Part shown: positions 8,478-15,723 of the stretch, one piece after another
Layout of the letters: each line of letters starts with the position of its first letter
How positions within the stretch are numbered: the first letter of the stretch is position 1
From: Bdellovibrio sp. GT3
GTDB lineage: Bacteria > Bdellovibrionota > Bdellovibrionia > Bdellovibrionales > Bdellovibrionaceae
Length of the DNA stretch: 64,000 bases
Direction: 5' to 3'
Assembly (NCBI RefSeq): GCF_037996765.1
Contig: NZ_JBBNAD010000005.1
Coordinates: 1,024,001-1,088,000, forward strand
The notes under the pieces: generated by a model
Told to the model about the DNA's origin: nothing
The model's database searches: none
Seen by the model: the letters and a program-made list of their open reading frames with translations, nothing else
Program-made: the position numbers and the translations under genes

Positions 8478-8791
8478 CGTTCCTCCTTGAACATCCTAAA
8501 TTCGCAAATCTCCGACTCCGTCGGAGGGGTTTGTCATTCTTACAAGGGGCTTTCTTTTCTTCCCGACTGATTCTCAGTTGGTAGTCAGCGGGGAGCATAA
8601 TTCCAGGGTGAATTTGACGTTTGTTAAGGTCACCTATATGACTCCGCAAGCCCTTATTTATCTTTGCAGGCCTTTGCCTCGGAGAGTACTGATTTGAAGG
8701 AGCCGTGCATTCGTTCCGGTCGTTGCTCCAGTACGAATGCCAATCACTAATGTACTGGACGTTTGGGCCAGGCAATTTAACAGGAGACGAA
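8478..8791. other. Divergent intergenic region
   Basis: 314 bases between divergent genes. A perfect hairpin CTCCGAC-TCC-GTCGGAG lies at 8510-8526 near the minus-strand gene. A small inverted repeat ACTGA-TTC-TCAGT lies at 8566-8578. No open frame with a ribosome site is convincing here. Promoters for both flanking genes must lie in this stretch, but none is unambiguous. Confidence 0.5.
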
Positions 8792-9883
8792 ATGAAAACT
8801 CTGAAGTTAATGGTAGCCGCATTTTCGGCCGTGTTCGGGATGAGCGCATCGGCAGCCAGCAATCAGGAAATCATCAGCCATATTTCCTACAACGTGATCT
8901 CTGCAACATATGTTGAGTTTGCTCATGCAACTGTTTCCTTAAAGCAAGCAGTCGATATTTTCGTTCAAAACCCAAATGAATCCAACTTGGCTCAGGCTCA
9001 GGCTGCTTGGCGTGGCGCTCGCATGCCATGGGAGTCTTCTGAAGCTTTCTTGTTCGGTCCGGTGGATTCTCTTGGAATTGATCCGATGCTGGATACATGG
9101 CCTTTGAATAAGCAGGATCTTGATTCTGTGTTGGCAATCAACACTCCAATCACGACGGATATGATTCGCGGTCTTGGAACAAACCTTCAAGGTTTCCACA
9201 CGATCGAGTATCTGCTGTTCGGTGATGGTATCCGAACTAATTCCAGACCCTTGTCTCAATTCACACAAAGACATTTTGAATACCTTCAAGCAGCAGCCCA
9301 ATTGGAAATGGAGTATGCTGTGGCGTTGGCCAATTCCTGGACAACCAACTACAATCCGGAAGATACAACAACTCCGGGTTATTCTGCCATTTTTGCTCAA
9401 CCAGGTTCAAATAATCCGTTTTACACTTCCGACGCTGCAGTTATGGAAGAGCTTGTGAATGGCATGATCGCCATTGCAGACGAAGTGGCCAACGCAAAAA
9501 TTGCTGAGCCAATGGGTGCTGATATTAGCTCTGCAAATGTGGGTTTGATCGAGTCTCCGTTTTCCTGGAACTCTTTGAATGATTACACCTTCAATATCCG
9601 TTCAATTTACTCAGTTTATACTGGTACCTACAGAACTTCCAAAGGACCTGGAATCAAAGCCATGGTTGAGCGTCACAATCCTCTACTGGCACAACAGATT
9701 GAACAACACATCCTTGCATGCATGCAGTTGATTCAGGCGATCCGTCCTGCGGGCGGCGGTGACATGGGTCAGGCGATATTCACTGTGGATGGTCGTCAAC
9801 GTGCAACTCAGGCGATTCAGGCTTTGAATCAGTTGCAAGCCGTTTTGGAAACACAAGTTTTGCCCTTGGTTGACAAGCAATAG
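8792..9883 (+). CDS. Imelysin family protein (periplasmic iron-regulated type)
   Basis: 363 residues with a signal peptide (MKTLKLMVAAFSAVFGMSASA). It carries the imelysin GxHxxE motif as GFHTIEYLLFG, and typical YVEFAHATVSLKQAV and AWRGARMPWESSEAFLFGPV segments. Imelysins are metal-linked periplasmic or outer-membrane proteins often under Fur control. The ATG at 8792 has AGGAGACG just before it; the frame is open further upstream without support. The stop codon is followed at once by the di-haem gene, a conserved pairing seen in the Pseudomonas IcmP region. Confidence 0.9.
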   Translation: MKTLKLMVAAFSAVFGMSASAASNQEIISHISYNVISATYVEFAHATVSLKQAVDIFVQNPNESNLAQAQAAWRGARMPWESSEAFLFGPVDSLGIDPMLDTWPLNKQDLDSVLAINTPITTDMIRGLGTNLQGFHTIEYLLFGDGIRTNSRPLSQFTQRHFEYLQAAAQLEMEYAVALANSWTTNYNPEDTTTPGYSAIFAQPGSNNPFYTSDAAVMEELVNGMIAIADEVANAKIAEPMGADISSANVGLIESPFSWNSLNDYTFNIRSIYSVYTGTYRTSKGPGIKAMVERHNPLLAQQIEQHILACMQLIQAIRPAGGGDMGQAIFTVDGRQRATQAIQALNQLQAVLETQVLPLVDKQ

Positions 9884-11404
9884 ATGAAAACTCCAGCTCT
9901 GCTATTAACACTTCAATTGTTCATTGGTGGAGCTGCGATTGCCGCTTCAAATTCCCATGCCATCGACATGGATTACGTGCACGCGGTCATGTCGGGTGGT
10001 GATACCACAGTTATTTTTAAGCGAGAGTCCATTCAGGCGTTCAGAAATCCTGCCGCGAATTTGACTGAGGATGAAATCCGACGTCATTTTACCGGTGATG
10101 CTTTGTTTGAAAGAAATTTTTCTGACGATCCTTCGCGCCAGGATCATGGCTTGGGTCCTGTTTTCAACAATACAAACTGCAATGCCTGCCATGCCAAAGA
10201 CGGTCGTGGGGCTCTTCCTGTTTTGCCAATTGGTCAGGAGAAAGTTTTGCTTCGTCAAAACGAGGCGGTTTTCTTAAGAATCAGTATTGAAACGGCAGTA
10301 CCGCAAGCGAAGTCTGCTTCCAATAATTGGGGAGCACCAACTCCGGTACCTGGTTTTTCTGATCAATTGTTTCACTTGGGTTCGCTGGGAGTTCGCCCGG
10401 AAATGCAGGGGGTCGGTCAGGCTCAGGTTTGGATGAGCTATGAAACTTCACAGTTCACATATCCTGACGGATCAGTTGTTGGACTACGCAAACCGATCTT
10501 CACAGTGACTGCTCCGTACGACCAGTATTTTGACTCAGTGACCGGGCAAGTTCGGTCACGATTGTTCGAGAAAGACGTTAAGATGGGTCCTCGTATGGGG
10601 ACGCCGATGATCGGCTTGGGATTGCTTGAGGCGATCAAAGAATCTGACATTCGATCTTTGGCGGCTCGCGATCTGTCGGCGGAAGGAATCTCCGGTCAGG
10701 TTAACATGGTATTTGATATTGAAAAGTCCATGAGAGGTGAGGCGTATCCGGTGTCGTTGGGTCGTTTTGGTTTGAAAAACAACACGCCTTCGGTATTTCA
10801 TCAATCGTTGGGGGCTCTTCGTGGTGATATCGGCGTAACTAATTATGCATTTCCCAATGAAAGCATCGTGGATACACCGCTTTATGAGAAGTTCATGGAG
10901 AACCGTCCACAACTTCCAGCGCCTCAGGCAGCAAATCAGGTTGCCGACGATATAGTTTTTTACTCTCAAACACTGGCTGTTCCTTCCCGTCGCAATGTGG
11001 ATAATCCCGTTGTAATTGAAGGCGCCCGATTGTTTAACCAAACCAGTTGCACGAGCTGCCATCAACCAAGTTTTGTGACGGGACCTCATGCGATCTCGGC
11101 CTTTGCCAATCAAAAGATTTACCCATTCACTGACATGCTACTGCATGACATGGGACCTGGTTTGGCGGATGGTCGCAGAGATTTCGATGCTTCAGGCAAT
11201 CAGTGGAAGACTCGTCCACTATGGGGTATCGGACAAACTCAAACGATCAATCCACGCGCTGGCTTTCTGCATGATGGACGTGCACGCACTCTGGAAGAGG
11301 CCATTCTGTGGCACGGAGGCGAAGCGGAATATTCCAAAACCAAATTTACTCAACTTACCAAGGATCAACGTATCGCTTTGATTCAGTTTTTGAAGTCCTT
11401 ATAA
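9884..11404 (+). CDS. Di-haem cytochrome, DUF1111/thiol-oxidoreductase-like
   Basis: 506 residues with a signal peptide. There are two c-type haem motifs, CNACH (residues 99-103) and CTSCH (389-393), as in the DUF1111 di-haem oxidoreductase-like family related to di-haem peroxidases. It starts with no gap after the imelysin stop (TAG-ATG), so translation is probably coupled. A role in periplasmic redox steps of iron acquisition is inferred from the pairing, not shown. The family name 'thiol oxidoreductase' is historical. Confidence 0.88.
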   Translation: MKTPALLLTLQLFIGGAAIAASNSHAIDMDYVHAVMSGGDTTVIFKRESIQAFRNPAANLTEDEIRRHFTGDALFERNFSDDPSRQDHGLGPVFNNTNCNACHAKDGRGALPVLPIGQEKVLLRQNEAVFLRISIETAVPQAKSASNNWGAPTPVPGFSDQLFHLGSLGVRPEMQGVGQAQVWMSYETSQFTYPDGSVVGLRKPIFTVTAPYDQYFDSVTGQVRSRLFEKDVKMGPRMGTPMIGLGLLEAIKESDIRSLAARDLSAEGISGQVNMVFDIEKSMRGEAYPVSLGRFGLKNNTPSVFHQSLGALRGDIGVTNYAFPNESIVDTPLYEKFMENRPQLPAPQAANQVADDIVFYSQTLAVPSRRNVDNPVVIEGARLFNQTSCTSCHQPSFVTGPHAISAFANQKIYPFTDMLLHDMGPGLADGRRDFDASGNQWKTRPLWGIGQTQTINPRAGFLHDGRARTLEEAILWHGGEAEYSKTKFTQLTKDQRIALIQFLKSL

Positions 11405-11681: not shown

Positions 11682-13409
11682 ATGATGGATGATCAAAACG
11701 ACGCAAATGATCTGCCGGATTTTTCCGGACTGATAGACTTTGAGCAAATCGAAGAGGTTTCGCGCGTCTTTTTTGAGGAGTCCAAAGAAATTCTGCAAGG
11801 TCTCGATGCGCAAATCATGAAGCTTGAAGATGCGCCAAATGATATCGAGCAAATCAATGTGTTGTTCCGAAAAGTACATACTATCAAAGGCAGTGTGGGA
11901 TCTGTTCCCGGCGGTCAGTTGCTGGCTTCCCTGTCACACGAATTCGAAGCATTGCTTACGCGTATCAAGCGTGAATCGCAAACAGTCTCCAAGGAATGCA
12001 TCGATTTATTCCTATTGAGTTCGCGTCTGATGAAGCAACTTGCGGATGCCTTGCGTGAAAAGCGTGATTTGTATCCGGAGGAGCTAAGCGAAGTGATCGA
12101 AACAATCACTCGTTACAATGGTTTCCAGTTTTCAGGGGAAGCTCCCAAGAAAACCAAGAAGATCTCCAAGTCATCTGCTCCATCAAGTGATGAGGATGGC
12201 GTTTGGATGTCGACCAAGCAACTGAATGAAATGCTGCGCTTAAGTGGTGAGCTGCTGGTGCTTAAGAATTTTTTCGCAATGATGAATCAGACAGTGAACT
12301 TCCGCATGGAACCGGAACTGTTTGAGCGTCGCCAATCCGATTTTTCACAAAACCTCTCCAAGATCACAGATCAATTCCAGAGCCAGCTTCAGGTAATTCG
12401 CAAGGAAAAGGCCGACGAGAGCTTTCAAGGAATTCCGGTCTTGGTTCGTCAGACTGCGACCGAGCTTAATAAGACAGTGAACCTGGAGATGAACGGTTTG
12501 GACTTTTTCATCGATAAGTCTTTGGCGAAGGACATTTCTGAATCACTGATCCATCTGGTGCGCAACTCCATCGATCACGGTATTGAAGATCAGTTTGAAA
12601 GAACGGTGGCAGGCAAGCCTTCCATTGGACAGTTGTCGATCGAAATCACGGATCGCAGCGGGACCATATATGTTGTCATGAAAGATGACGGTAAAGGTTT
12701 GGATCGCGAGCGCATTCTAAAACGTGCTCTTGCCAATGAACTGATCAGGCCTGAAGACGTCGGTTCTGTTTCTGATGAGGAAATATATAAGTGTATTTTT
12801 GAGCCAGGGTTTTCCACCAAAGAAAAGATCACAACCGTCTCCGGTCGTGGTGTGGGAATGGATGTGGTATCAACCCTGGTTGAAAAATACGGTGGTAGTA
12901 TTTCAATATCAACTCAAAGTGGCTTGGGAACGACCTTTACTCTGGTTTATCCAGCACCGTCGCATATCCTGGTGGAAGCAGCAATGCTGGCGACTTGGAA
13001 TGGTTTCCAAATTGCCGTGCCGTTAACTTCTGTGGCCCATATCACCTCGTGCAGTGGTCTGCAGTTGAATCGCATCGAACATCTTCGCTATTGTCAGTTC
13101 CACAATCAAACAGTGCCGCTACTAAGTTATCAGGAGATTCGTGAAGACAGATTGAATCTGGACGAATCCAAAGTGTCGGCAAGCACTGCTGTTTTTATCA
13201 GAGCAAAAAACTCAATGGTGGCATTGCTGGTGGATCGGGTAGAGGCCCAGACAGATCTTGTGGTTAAGGGATTCGGGAATATCGTTAAAGAGCAAAAGGG
13301 CTTTAAAGGGTTCTCGATTCTTGCAGATGAAAAGGTCACCTATATCATTGATCCTGAACAGTTGCTGGCAATGTTAAAACAGGCTCTACCTATGGAGAAC
13401 GCGGCATGA
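11682..13409 (+). CDS. cheA: CheA-type chemosensory histidine kinase
   Basis: 575 residues in CheA order. The HPt (P1) domain has VHTIKGS with phospho-acceptor His66. A short linker of about 40 residues follows, with no visible P2 CheY-binding domain. Next come the P3 dimerisation helices (~180-270), the HATPase with N-box LVRNSIDHG, DDGKGLD and GRGVGMD, and a C-terminal CheW-like P5 domain. Lack of P2 suggests that it phosphorylates its partner without a docking domain. The ATG overlaps no obvious ribosome site; a CCGATAAA element ends 10 bases upstream. Its stop overlaps the CheW-like gene by 4 bases. Confidence 0.92.
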   Translation: MMDDQNDANDLPDFSGLIDFEQIEEVSRVFFEESKEILQGLDAQIMKLEDAPNDIEQINVLFRKVHTIKGSVGSVPGGQLLASLSHEFEALLTRIKRESQTVSKECIDLFLLSSRLMKQLADALREKRDLYPEELSEVIETITRYNGFQFSGEAPKKTKKISKSSAPSSDEDGVWMSTKQLNEMLRLSGELLVLKNFFAMMNQTVNFRMEPELFERRQSDFSQNLSKITDQFQSQLQVIRKEKADESFQGIPVLVRQTATELNKTVNLEMNGLDFFIDKSLAKDISESLIHLVRNSIDHGIEDQFERTVAGKPSIGQLSIEITDRSGTIYVVMKDDGKGLDRERILKRALANELIRPEDVGSVSDEEIYKCIFEPGFSTKEKITTVSGRGVGMDVVSTLVEKYGGSISISTQSGLGTTFTLVYPAPSHILVEAAMLATWNGFQIAVPLTSVAHITSCSGLQLNRIEHLRYCQFHNQTVPLLSYQEIREDRLNLDESKVSASTAVFIRAKNSMVALLVDRVEAQTDLVVKGFGNIVKEQKGFKGFSILADEKVTYIIDPEQLLAMLKQALPMENAA

Positions 13410-14173
13410 GTGACATCTTCGGCGATGATTTTACATGGGAATTGAAAAAGTACTTCCTGGAATCAACCAGTAAAGATGTTGAGTCATTTATTGATTTGCT
13501 TGATGACTCGACGCTGGCGAAAGTCACGCTCGAGATACGCGAATCCGTCGATTCCTGGCAGATCGATGCCAAAACCAATGAGTTTGCTCAGTTGGAATCC
13601 TGGCTTGCCGACTTTAAAAGCAAAATAGACTCCTTGGACACCGTTGAACAGTTGCGCACCGGACTCGGCTTACTGCTGAAGTATTTAACTGCGCTTTTGA
13701 CGGAAAAAAAGGACAGTGAGGAACTTGTCGCTCGATTCCCGCTGGTTGCGCAAAGCAATCGCGAAGCTTTGTTCCTGCATTGCAAAACCGGAACTCAGGA
13801 ATTTGTTGTTCCGATCGGCAACGTCATTGAGATCAGCGGAGTTCTGCCTGTGTACATACTGCCGGATGCCCAGCCAGGTTTGGCGGGTTTATTGCCGTTC
13901 CGTGGGGATGCGATTCCGGTGATTGATTTGAATTCCTACGGCTTTCATGCCGTGGATTTAAGTAAGTGCTACTATGTCATCTGCGAACATGAAGGCATGC
14001 GCTTTTCATTGAAGGTGACAGAGGCAGACGAGTTAATAAGTTTAAAAGACAGAGATATGCAAAATTTAAGTGATCATCCAACGATGCTTTCGGTGCCTTT
14101 CATCAAACAGTTCTTTGTAAAAGACAAGCACAGCGTGATGGTACTCGACATTGAAAAGTTGGTGGCCGCATGA
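13406..14173 (+). CDS. CheW-like coupling protein with N-terminal helical extension
   Basis: 255 residues. The C-terminal ~140 residues are a CheW domain (FVVPIGNVIEISGV, LLPFRGDAIPVIDL, and a final HSVMVLDIEKLV). The first ~110 residues are an acidic helical extension not found in plain CheW. It starts within the cheA stop (ATGA overlap) and its own stop overlaps the next gene, so all three are coupled. The extension may replace a missing regulatory piece of the array or carry a binding site; this is inference. Confidence 0.85.
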   Translation: MSDIFGDDFTWELKKYFLESTSKDVESFIDLLDDSTLAKVTLEIRESVDSWQIDAKTNEFAQLESWLADFKSKIDSLDTVEQLRTGLGLLLKYLTALLTEKKDSEELVARFPLVAQSNREALFLHCKTGTQEFVVPIGNVIEISGVLPVYILPDAQPGLAGLLPFRGDAIPVIDLNSYGFHAVDLSKCYYVICEHEGMRFSLKVTEADELISLKDRDMQNLSDHPTMLSVPFIKQFFVKDKHSVMVLDIEKLVAA

Positions 14174-15723
14174 ATTCACATTATTTGTATCCAGGTAAGT
14201 ACGCAGCATTTAAAGAAGAGACGATTATTTCAACCCTTCTCGGTTCTTGTGTTGCCGTCGCGATCTTTGATCCGACTACAAAAATTGGCGGGTTGAATCA
14301 CTATCTTTTGCCCGAAGCCCAGTCAGGGGAGCGTGCAAACTCCCGCTATGGAAACTTTGCCATTCAGATGCTTGTGGATGATTGCCTGCGTTTAGGCGCA
14401 AATCGCAGTCAATTGAAAGCAAAGATTTATGGCGGTGGCAACGTTATCAGTGTGTCCTCGCTGGGTGATGCCATTGGCTCCCGAAATATCGAATTCGCTG
14501 AAACAACATTGCGCCAGCTGGGCATTCCGATAGTTGATAAGAATGTCGGTGGCGAATCCGCTCGAACGATCAAGTTTAATACCGCGACGGCGGATGTCTT
14601 GCATAATCAAACCAAAGAAGGCAGCTCGGAAAGTCCAGTGGACGTTTCGGGGTTTAAGCCACTGGCCGTTGCAAAAAGCATTAAGGTGCTGATTGTTGAT
14701 GACTCGGCAACAGTACGTACATTGTTCAGTAAGATATTCACCGCCAGTGGTTTGGAAGTGGTTGGAGCTGCCGCTGATGCCTATCAGGCCCGTGACCTAA
14801 TTGTTAATAAAAAGCCGGACGTGATGACCCTGGACATCGAGATGCCAAAAATGTCCGGTGTAATGTTTCTGGAAAAGATCATGACTCACTTTCCGATTCC
14901 TGTGGTCATGGTTTCGTCATTGGCCAATACAGGTGAAGCGGCCTTGAAGTCATTGAATTTGGGGGCTGTTGAGTTCGTTCACAAGCCGTCACAGTTTGAT
15001 CCTCAAGTTTTAAAGCAATTGGCAGAACAGTTGGTAACCAAGGTTCGTGCTGCAGCTTCAGTAAATGTTATTAAAAAGCTCAAAGAAAATCCAGCACCCG
15101 AAGTTCGGGCTTCAGCGCCGACAGTGGCTTTGCGTCGCGCGGCGGAATTGAAGCTGGTTGTTGTTGGTGGTAATTCAGGAAGTGCCGATGCATTGGAGAA
15201 ATTCATCACCAATCTTGCGGCGGATACACCACCAGTTGTAGTCTCTTGTAGTACTGTTACAAACTTCGTGACGGCCTATATATCTAAGCTAAAGGGTAAT
15301 TCAAAAGTATCTTTGGTAGTGGGTAAAGATGGTGATTTCCTGCGAATGGGACACGTGTATTTCATTCCTTCGGAACATCATGGTAAAATTGCTCCAGGCG
15401 CACAAGGCCCTATGTTGAAATTGGAAAAGGGAGCCCCGGTGGCTTCTCAGTTGCCTTCCAGCAACGTGCTGTTTCAATCAGCTGCAAGTGCCTACGGAAA
15501 AGGTGTTTTCGCCGTCCTTCTTGGGGGATTTGGCACGGACGGCGTAAATGGTTTGACCGAGGTGCAGAAACTCGGGGGTGCGAGTGTTGTTCAGAATCCA
15601 TCTGAGGCTCAGTTTCCGTATGGACCACAAAAAGCCATTGAACTTGGCGTGGCGGATGAGGTACTAAAAGCAGAGGCTTTGGCTGGATACTTAATGCAGT
15701 ATCGTAACCAAAATCTTTACTAA
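14170..15723 (+). CDS. CheD-CheB fusion with degenerate methylesterase site
   Basis: 517 residues in three parts. CheD (about 1-160) keeps its glutamine-deamidase centre: Cys27 in LLGSCV, His44 in GGLNHYLLP, and a Ser/Thr at 21-22. A receiver follows (about 171-290) with DD177-178, acceptor Asp222 in LDIEMPKMSG, and Lys272. The CheB domain is at about 325-515. Its nucleophile motif G-A-S-T-G-G reads G-G-N-S-G-S (333-338), with Asn335 at the Ser position, and the V-Q-H-M-P His motif reads V-S-C-S-T (358-362). Asp457 in FGTDGVNGL remains. The esterase part is therefore probably inactive and may serve as a phospho-dependent regulator of CheD. Confidence 0.88.
   Translation: MNSHYLYPGKYAAFKEETIISTLLGSCVAVAIFDPTTKIGGLNHYLLPEAQSGERANSRYGNFAIQMLVDDCLRLGANRSQLKAKIYGGGNVISVSSLGDAIGSRNIEFAETTLRQLGIPIVDKNVGGESARTIKFNTATADVLHNQTKEGSSESPVDVSGFKPLAVAKSIKVLIVDDSATVRTLFSKIFTASGLEVVGAAADAYQARDLIVNKKPDVMTLDIEMPKMSGVMFLEKIMTHFPIPVVMVSSLANTGEAALKSLNLGAVEFVHKPSQFDPQVLKQLAEQLVTKVRAAASVNVIKKLKENPAPEVRASAPTVALRRAAELKLVVVGGNSGSADALEKFITNLAADTPPVVVSCSTVTNFVTAYISKLKGNSKVSLVVGKDGDFLRMGHVYFIPSEHHGKIAPGAQGPMLKLEKGAPVASQLPSSNVLFQSAASAYGKGVFAVLLGGFGTDGVNGLTEVQKLGGASVVQNPSEAQFPYGPQKAIELGVADEVLKAEALAGYLMQYRNQNLY

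Follow-up and report, generated by a model that had tools for sequence, protein, structure and literature searches.

The chemotaxis locus of the window

The window, a stretch of 64,000 nucleotides from the 3.58 Mb genome of Bdellovibrio sp. GT3, contains three overlapping chemotaxis genes in the order cheA, cheW and cheD/REC/cheB. The last of these encodes a 517-aa protein in which a CheD domain is followed by a receiver (REC) and a CheB effector fold. The genes and domains are as follows:

11682..13409, + strand: CheA, candidate phosphodonor (Pfam Hpt, HATPase_c and CheW; alignment and co-occurrence)
13406..14173, + strand: CheW with an N-terminal extension of ~120 aa (13406-13770), overlapping both cheA and the fusion gene by 4 bp
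14170..15723, + strand: CheD-REC-pseudo-CheB gene, 517 aa, confirmed as a real open reading frame
14170..14619, + strand: CheD domain, aa 1-150 (Pfam PF03975, match to 2f9z_C, motif table)
14620..14676, + strand: low-confidence linker 1, aa 151-169 (pLDDT <50 at aa 149-167)
14677..15069, + strand: receiver domain, aa 170-300 (Pfam Response_reg, match to 3t8y)
15070..15147, + strand: fast-evolving linker 2, aa 301-326 (interspecies identity 46-77%, against 75-92% in the flanking domains)
15148..15720, + strand: pseudo-methylesterase with the CheB effector fold, aa 327-517 (Pfam, alignments, 1chd fold match)

An earlier note on this DNA had described a CheD-REC-CheB fusion, and its coordinates and residue numbers were correct on re-analysis of the open reading frame, which overlaps the upstream cheW by 4 bp. 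The three Pfam domains scored far over the cut-off: CheD at 46-144 (PF03975, E 3e-26, 92 bits), Response_reg at 173-276 (E 7e-23) and CheB_methylest at 330-507 (113 bits), so that the receiver plus effector fold by which a CheB is recognised is present. The NCBIfam models fell below their cut-offs, both for CheB (PRK00742.1, 247.7 bits, cut-off 293) and for CheD (best PRK13487.1, 137.7 bits, cut-off 223), the CheD equivalog models having been built for standalone CheDs from other lineages. An orthologue of the fusion with 73% identity is found on a B. bacteriovorus chromosome. Upstream of the three genes are an imelysin gene and a di-haem oxidoreductase (DHOR) gene, and downstream is an aldehyde dehydrogenase gene.

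In the more distant genomes G002 and G065, the region matching the CheW extension is recognised as an Hpt domain and carries a motif of the His-x-x-Lys-Gly type. Members of the genus Bdellovibrio lack this His, so their extension may be a degenerate Hpt.

Active-site residues

The effector was aligned to Salmonella CheB (1a2o) and then, with MAFFT, among up to 131 sequences. In both alignments Asn335 takes the position of the nucleophile Ser164; Ser336 corresponds to Thr165, Cys360-Ser361-Thr362 to Gln189-His190-Met191 and Phe454 to Met283, while Asp286 is kept as Asp457. The catalytic Ser-His-Asp triad of CheB is absent from the effector, which has Asn335, Ser361 and Asp457 instead. The CheD domain has the CheD fold together with Thr22, Cys27 and His44, and its deamidase activity would follow from these conserved residues. 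The receiver keeps Asp177, Asp178, the phosphorylation site Asp222 and Lys272, and the acid pair and phospho-Asp are present in every dead fusion aligned.

Searches for homologues covered the genus, family, order, class and phylum, and recovered 25 full-length dead fusions in the order, 20 of them in the genus (the one in the window included). Further copies were split by a contig break (G020), truncated (G080) or found in another class of the phylum (G273). The nucleophile position is Asn in all 25 full-length members, the His190 position is Ser in 23 and Ala in two, the Met283 position is Phe in all, and the equivalent of Asp286 is kept throughout; G273 conforms to this. The comparison CheBs, a set weighted towards genes next to CheD and relatives within the phylum, had Ser, His, Met and Asp in 106/106 cases. 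Since the pattern occurs in 25 members and in one from another class, it is not due to chance or to an error in a single genome. A loss restricted to the GT3 genome, or a sequencing error, was rejected on the same count (25/25). Ser336 was considered as a substitute nucleophile and rejected, as position 336 is Ala in 21/25 members.

The earlier note had assigned Asn335 to the nucleophile position, a lost His motif and a retained Asp457, as well as retained Cys27, His44 and Asp222, and all of these assignments held, with Thr22 as an addition. As grounds for refutation it had named an alignment that puts a Ser and a His at the triad positions; in the alignments made here, neither residue falls there. 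Its main claim, a dead methylesterase centre, gains strong support from the absence of Ser and His in 25/25 fusions against their joint presence in 106/106 comparison CheBs. With such a centre, the effector of the fusion should be unable to use the CheB mechanism to hydrolyse methyl esters.

Conservation and phylogeny of the fusion

In the CheB tree the dead sequences group as a single clade (support 100/100), as they do in a tree of the receiver alone (100/99), so that the clade is not a product of the active-site columns. CheD-REC-CheB fusions with an intact triad were also found in the phylum, mostly by CheR and MCP genes (e.g. L145, L147-L150, L166-L168, L190-L198), and these group as a clade apart in the CheB tree (100/98). 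Having CheD, REC and CheB in one protein is thus not in itself what sets the dead fusion apart. On whether the dead and live fusions arose once or twice the trees diverge: the receiver-only tree joins them (88/81), and the CheD tree places unfused CheDs between them with weak support. Outside the phylum, the best 80 relatives from a scan of 85,000 species genomes all had adjacent but separate cheD and cheB genes, with an intact triad in every case.

Rates of change were compared through dN and identity, as synonymous sites were saturated and no dN/dS ratio could be used. The dN of the dead effector (0.067-0.196) was below that of the CheD domain (0.114-0.241) in 9/9 species pairs, with values of 0.067 and 0.114 in one pair and of 0.196 and 0.231 in another, indicating that the dead effector is still constrained. 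Interspecies identity was 75-89% for the dead effector, compared with 46-73% for CheW, and the effector of the live CheB is slower still (91-97%). The receiver is the best conserved domain of the fusion (81-92%). Residues that are invariant in the 25-member dead clade and not in live CheBs include Gly334, Asn335, Gln427, Phe454, Pro477, Pro483 and Gln487; among them Gln427 (for His256), Phe454 (for Met283) and Gln487 lie at or near the old active-site motifs. Judged by these substitutions and rates, the dead effector is a surface that was rewritten and then held, and decay of an unused CheB domain is refuted by the conservation data.

Structure prediction

The AlphaFold2 model of the fusion, built from a 127-row alignment, had a pLDDT of 87.5 and a pTM of 0.66. 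Its receiver and effector together matched full-length CheB 1a2o (Z 40.4, 3.2 A, 334 residues), the effector matched 1chd (Z 31.2, 2.2 A, 195 residues) and the CheD domain matched T. maritima CheD 2f9z_C (Z 21.1), in agreement with the sequence alignment. The best single-domain match of the receiver was also a CheB receiver (3t8y, 39% identity). The predicted packing of receiver on effector is the regulated two-domain arrangement of CheB, which the live CheBs among the aligned sequences may have imposed; with the five fusions as sole input, the model reached a pLDDT of 57.6, too poor to judge packing.

The neighbouring CheA and other chemotaxis genes

The CheA encoded two genes upstream has intact motifs, with the Hpt His in FRKVHTIKG, the N box HLVRNSIDHG and the G boxes, and the phospho-His and ATP-binding boxes are kept in all seven orthologues aligned; by these motifs it is kinase-competent. 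Of the seven fusion genomes searched, six (G000, G018, G034, G065, G002 and G136) gave a near-full-length, best-in-genome match to it (34-100% identity). The seventh, G087, had no clear match, and its contig starts just before the fusion. None of the seven genomes with a standalone CheD has a CheA of the fusion type, those genomes holding other CheAs only. The co-occurrence and the conserved motifs indicate that this CheA is probably the phosphodonor of the fusion receiver.

The fusion is the sole CheD of the host genome. No CheC partner was found there, as the two PF04509 matches are a CheX and a REC-CheX protein, which leaves the fused CheD without its known partner. The genome has one live CheB (C5:192 kb), which adjoins CheR and a second CheA, and a CheW is encoded close by. 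Many of the host MCPs carry E-E in their first helix, with E-Q or Q-Q motifs in the second helix, a pattern compatible with CheD targets. In G000, an MCP-CheR gene pair precedes a protein that has three CheW domains (L174, G000:C5:1450-1454 kb).

A second CheD, standalone and of ~160 aa, is encoded elsewhere in six genus members (G003, G006, G009, G010, G015 and G019). The CheD named in a Bdellovibrio proteomics paper is Bd2829 (PMC12546842). This is probably a standalone CheD different from the fusion, since G003 has its second CheD at 2.73 Mb, and that copy may be Bd2829 itself.

Standalone CheD at the syntenic locus

In two members of the genus Bdellovibrio, G011 and G004, the syntenic locus reads imelysin, DHOR, CheD and aldehyde dehydrogenase, and CheA, CheW, receiver and pseudo-CheB are all absent. 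The imelysin and di-haem oxidoreductase genes, located at 8705-11404 in the window, thus still adjoin CheD in these genomes. In the CheD tree, the standalone CheDs of G011, G004 and genus g19 are nested among the fused ones. A tree that keeps all fused CheDs together was rejected, marginally, at p 0.036, and the best tree requires three changes between the fused and standalone states (four with G030). Constraining the standalone CheDs to one clade gave p 0.29, which is compatible with one joint loss. The nesting of the standalone CheDs and the rejected monophyly of the fused ones argue that CheA, CheW, receiver and pseudo-CheB probably disappeared together, in one block, from G011 and G004.

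Discussion

The long conservation of a dead CheB, kept nearly unchanged, suggests that it became a control part for a live CheD. We infer a chain of events in which the CheA two genes upstream, coupled by its CheW, would phosphorylate Asp222, and phosphorylation would alter the packing of the receiver on the effector domain, as it does in CheB. The pseudo-CheB effector would serve as a receptor-docking or lid module, timing the access of the tethered CheD to its target side chains in chemoreceptors, and CheB-type demethylation would be left to the separate live CheB. The receiver and pseudo-CheB would then act on CheD in cis, in the role that CheC and CheY-P play in trans in Bacillus. We give an even chance to the proposal that a CheB deprived of its esterase centre serves as a control unit built into this CheD protein, the phosphorylated receiver and pseudo-esterase gating CheD. 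Its broader form, in which a lineage-wide pseudo-methylesterase is a phosphorylation-dependent regulator that makes the fused CheD a CheA-controlled adaptation enzyme with no need of CheC, is put forward tentatively. That the receiver steers CheD is supported only indirectly, by the intact receiver, the co-occurring kinase-competent CheA, the predicted CheB-like packing and the lack of CheC in the genome.

In B. subtilis, CheC with CheY-P controls the binding of CheD to receptors, and for CheD this binding matters more than deamidation (PMC3513319). As Bacillus CheD works mainly by binding, the output of the fusion may not be enzymatic.

The protein could instead drain phosphate from CheA through its receiver, its pseudo-CheB vying for the methylation helices of receptors with the live CheB (and CheR), and CheD would be a passive passenger. 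A live CheB gene lies directly 3' of the dead fusion in five deep relatives (G002, G065, G087, G080 and G273), where the two forms would encounter the same receptors. In two of them the DD pair in the receiver of the live CheB is replaced by EE or ED (G273, L189:4776-5879; G087, L163:1792-2814), a degeneration that is the reverse of that in the dead fusion and hints at split labour between the copies. However, a sink or decoy does not account for a dead effector that stays fused to CheD in every member, nor for a CheD that persists alone where the rest is missing, and we consider it unlikely.

The pseudo-CheB could also be a constitutive receptor anchor for CheD, with the receiver a leftover without a switching role. 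The effector fold, kept and conserved though dead (Z 31.2 to 1chd), speaks for such an anchor, but the receiver is the best conserved domain, still has the residues for phosphorylation and occurs together with a kinase-competent CheA, which makes a fixed anchor quite doubtful. It is more improbable still that the pocket has been reshaped to catalyse another reaction or to bind a ligand, through residues such as Asn335, Gln427, Asp457 and Gln487: several positions of the old active-site motifs are indeed newly invariant in 25/25 members, but no invariant Ser or Cys replaces the nucleophile or the His (position 336 is Ala in 21/25, position 360 is Cys in 21/25 and position 361 is Ala in two). 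Recent pseudogene-like decay of the CheB part, to which the lost catalytic residues might point, is hardly credible given a frame open in all members, a dN below that of CheD and one old clade (100/100) over two classes.

No paper on a CheD-REC-pseudo-CheB protein was found in the open-access literature searched. Control of CheD is known mainly through CheC and CheY-P. If the regulatory reading is true, the fused and conserved pseudo-CheB would offer kinase feedback a second route to CheD, and would show a chemotaxis enzyme taking on a regulatory role. The host group consists of predatory bacteria whose adaptation system is little studied, and the fused and standalone CheDs at the same locus are natural variants that make the idea testable.

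With the CheBs of Salmonella (1a2o) and P. atrosepticum (6ymz), the fusion shares the receiver and effector fold, the predicted packing and the equivalent of Asp286; it differs in the replacement of Ser164, His190, Met283 and Thr165 and in its place behind a CheD. The intact-triad fusions of the phylum have the same domain order, but they keep Ser, His and Asp and form a separate clade, whereas the dead fusion is without Ser and His. The CheD domain has the fold and the Thr, Cys and His positions of T. maritima CheD (2f9z_C), but is joined to a receiver and pseudo-CheB in a genome where no CheC was found. The closest functional likeness would be to the CheC-CheD-CheY-P feedback of B. subtilis, in which CheD is under a phosphorylated receiver, as proposed for the fusion; here, control would act in cis through the pseudo-CheB instead of CheC.
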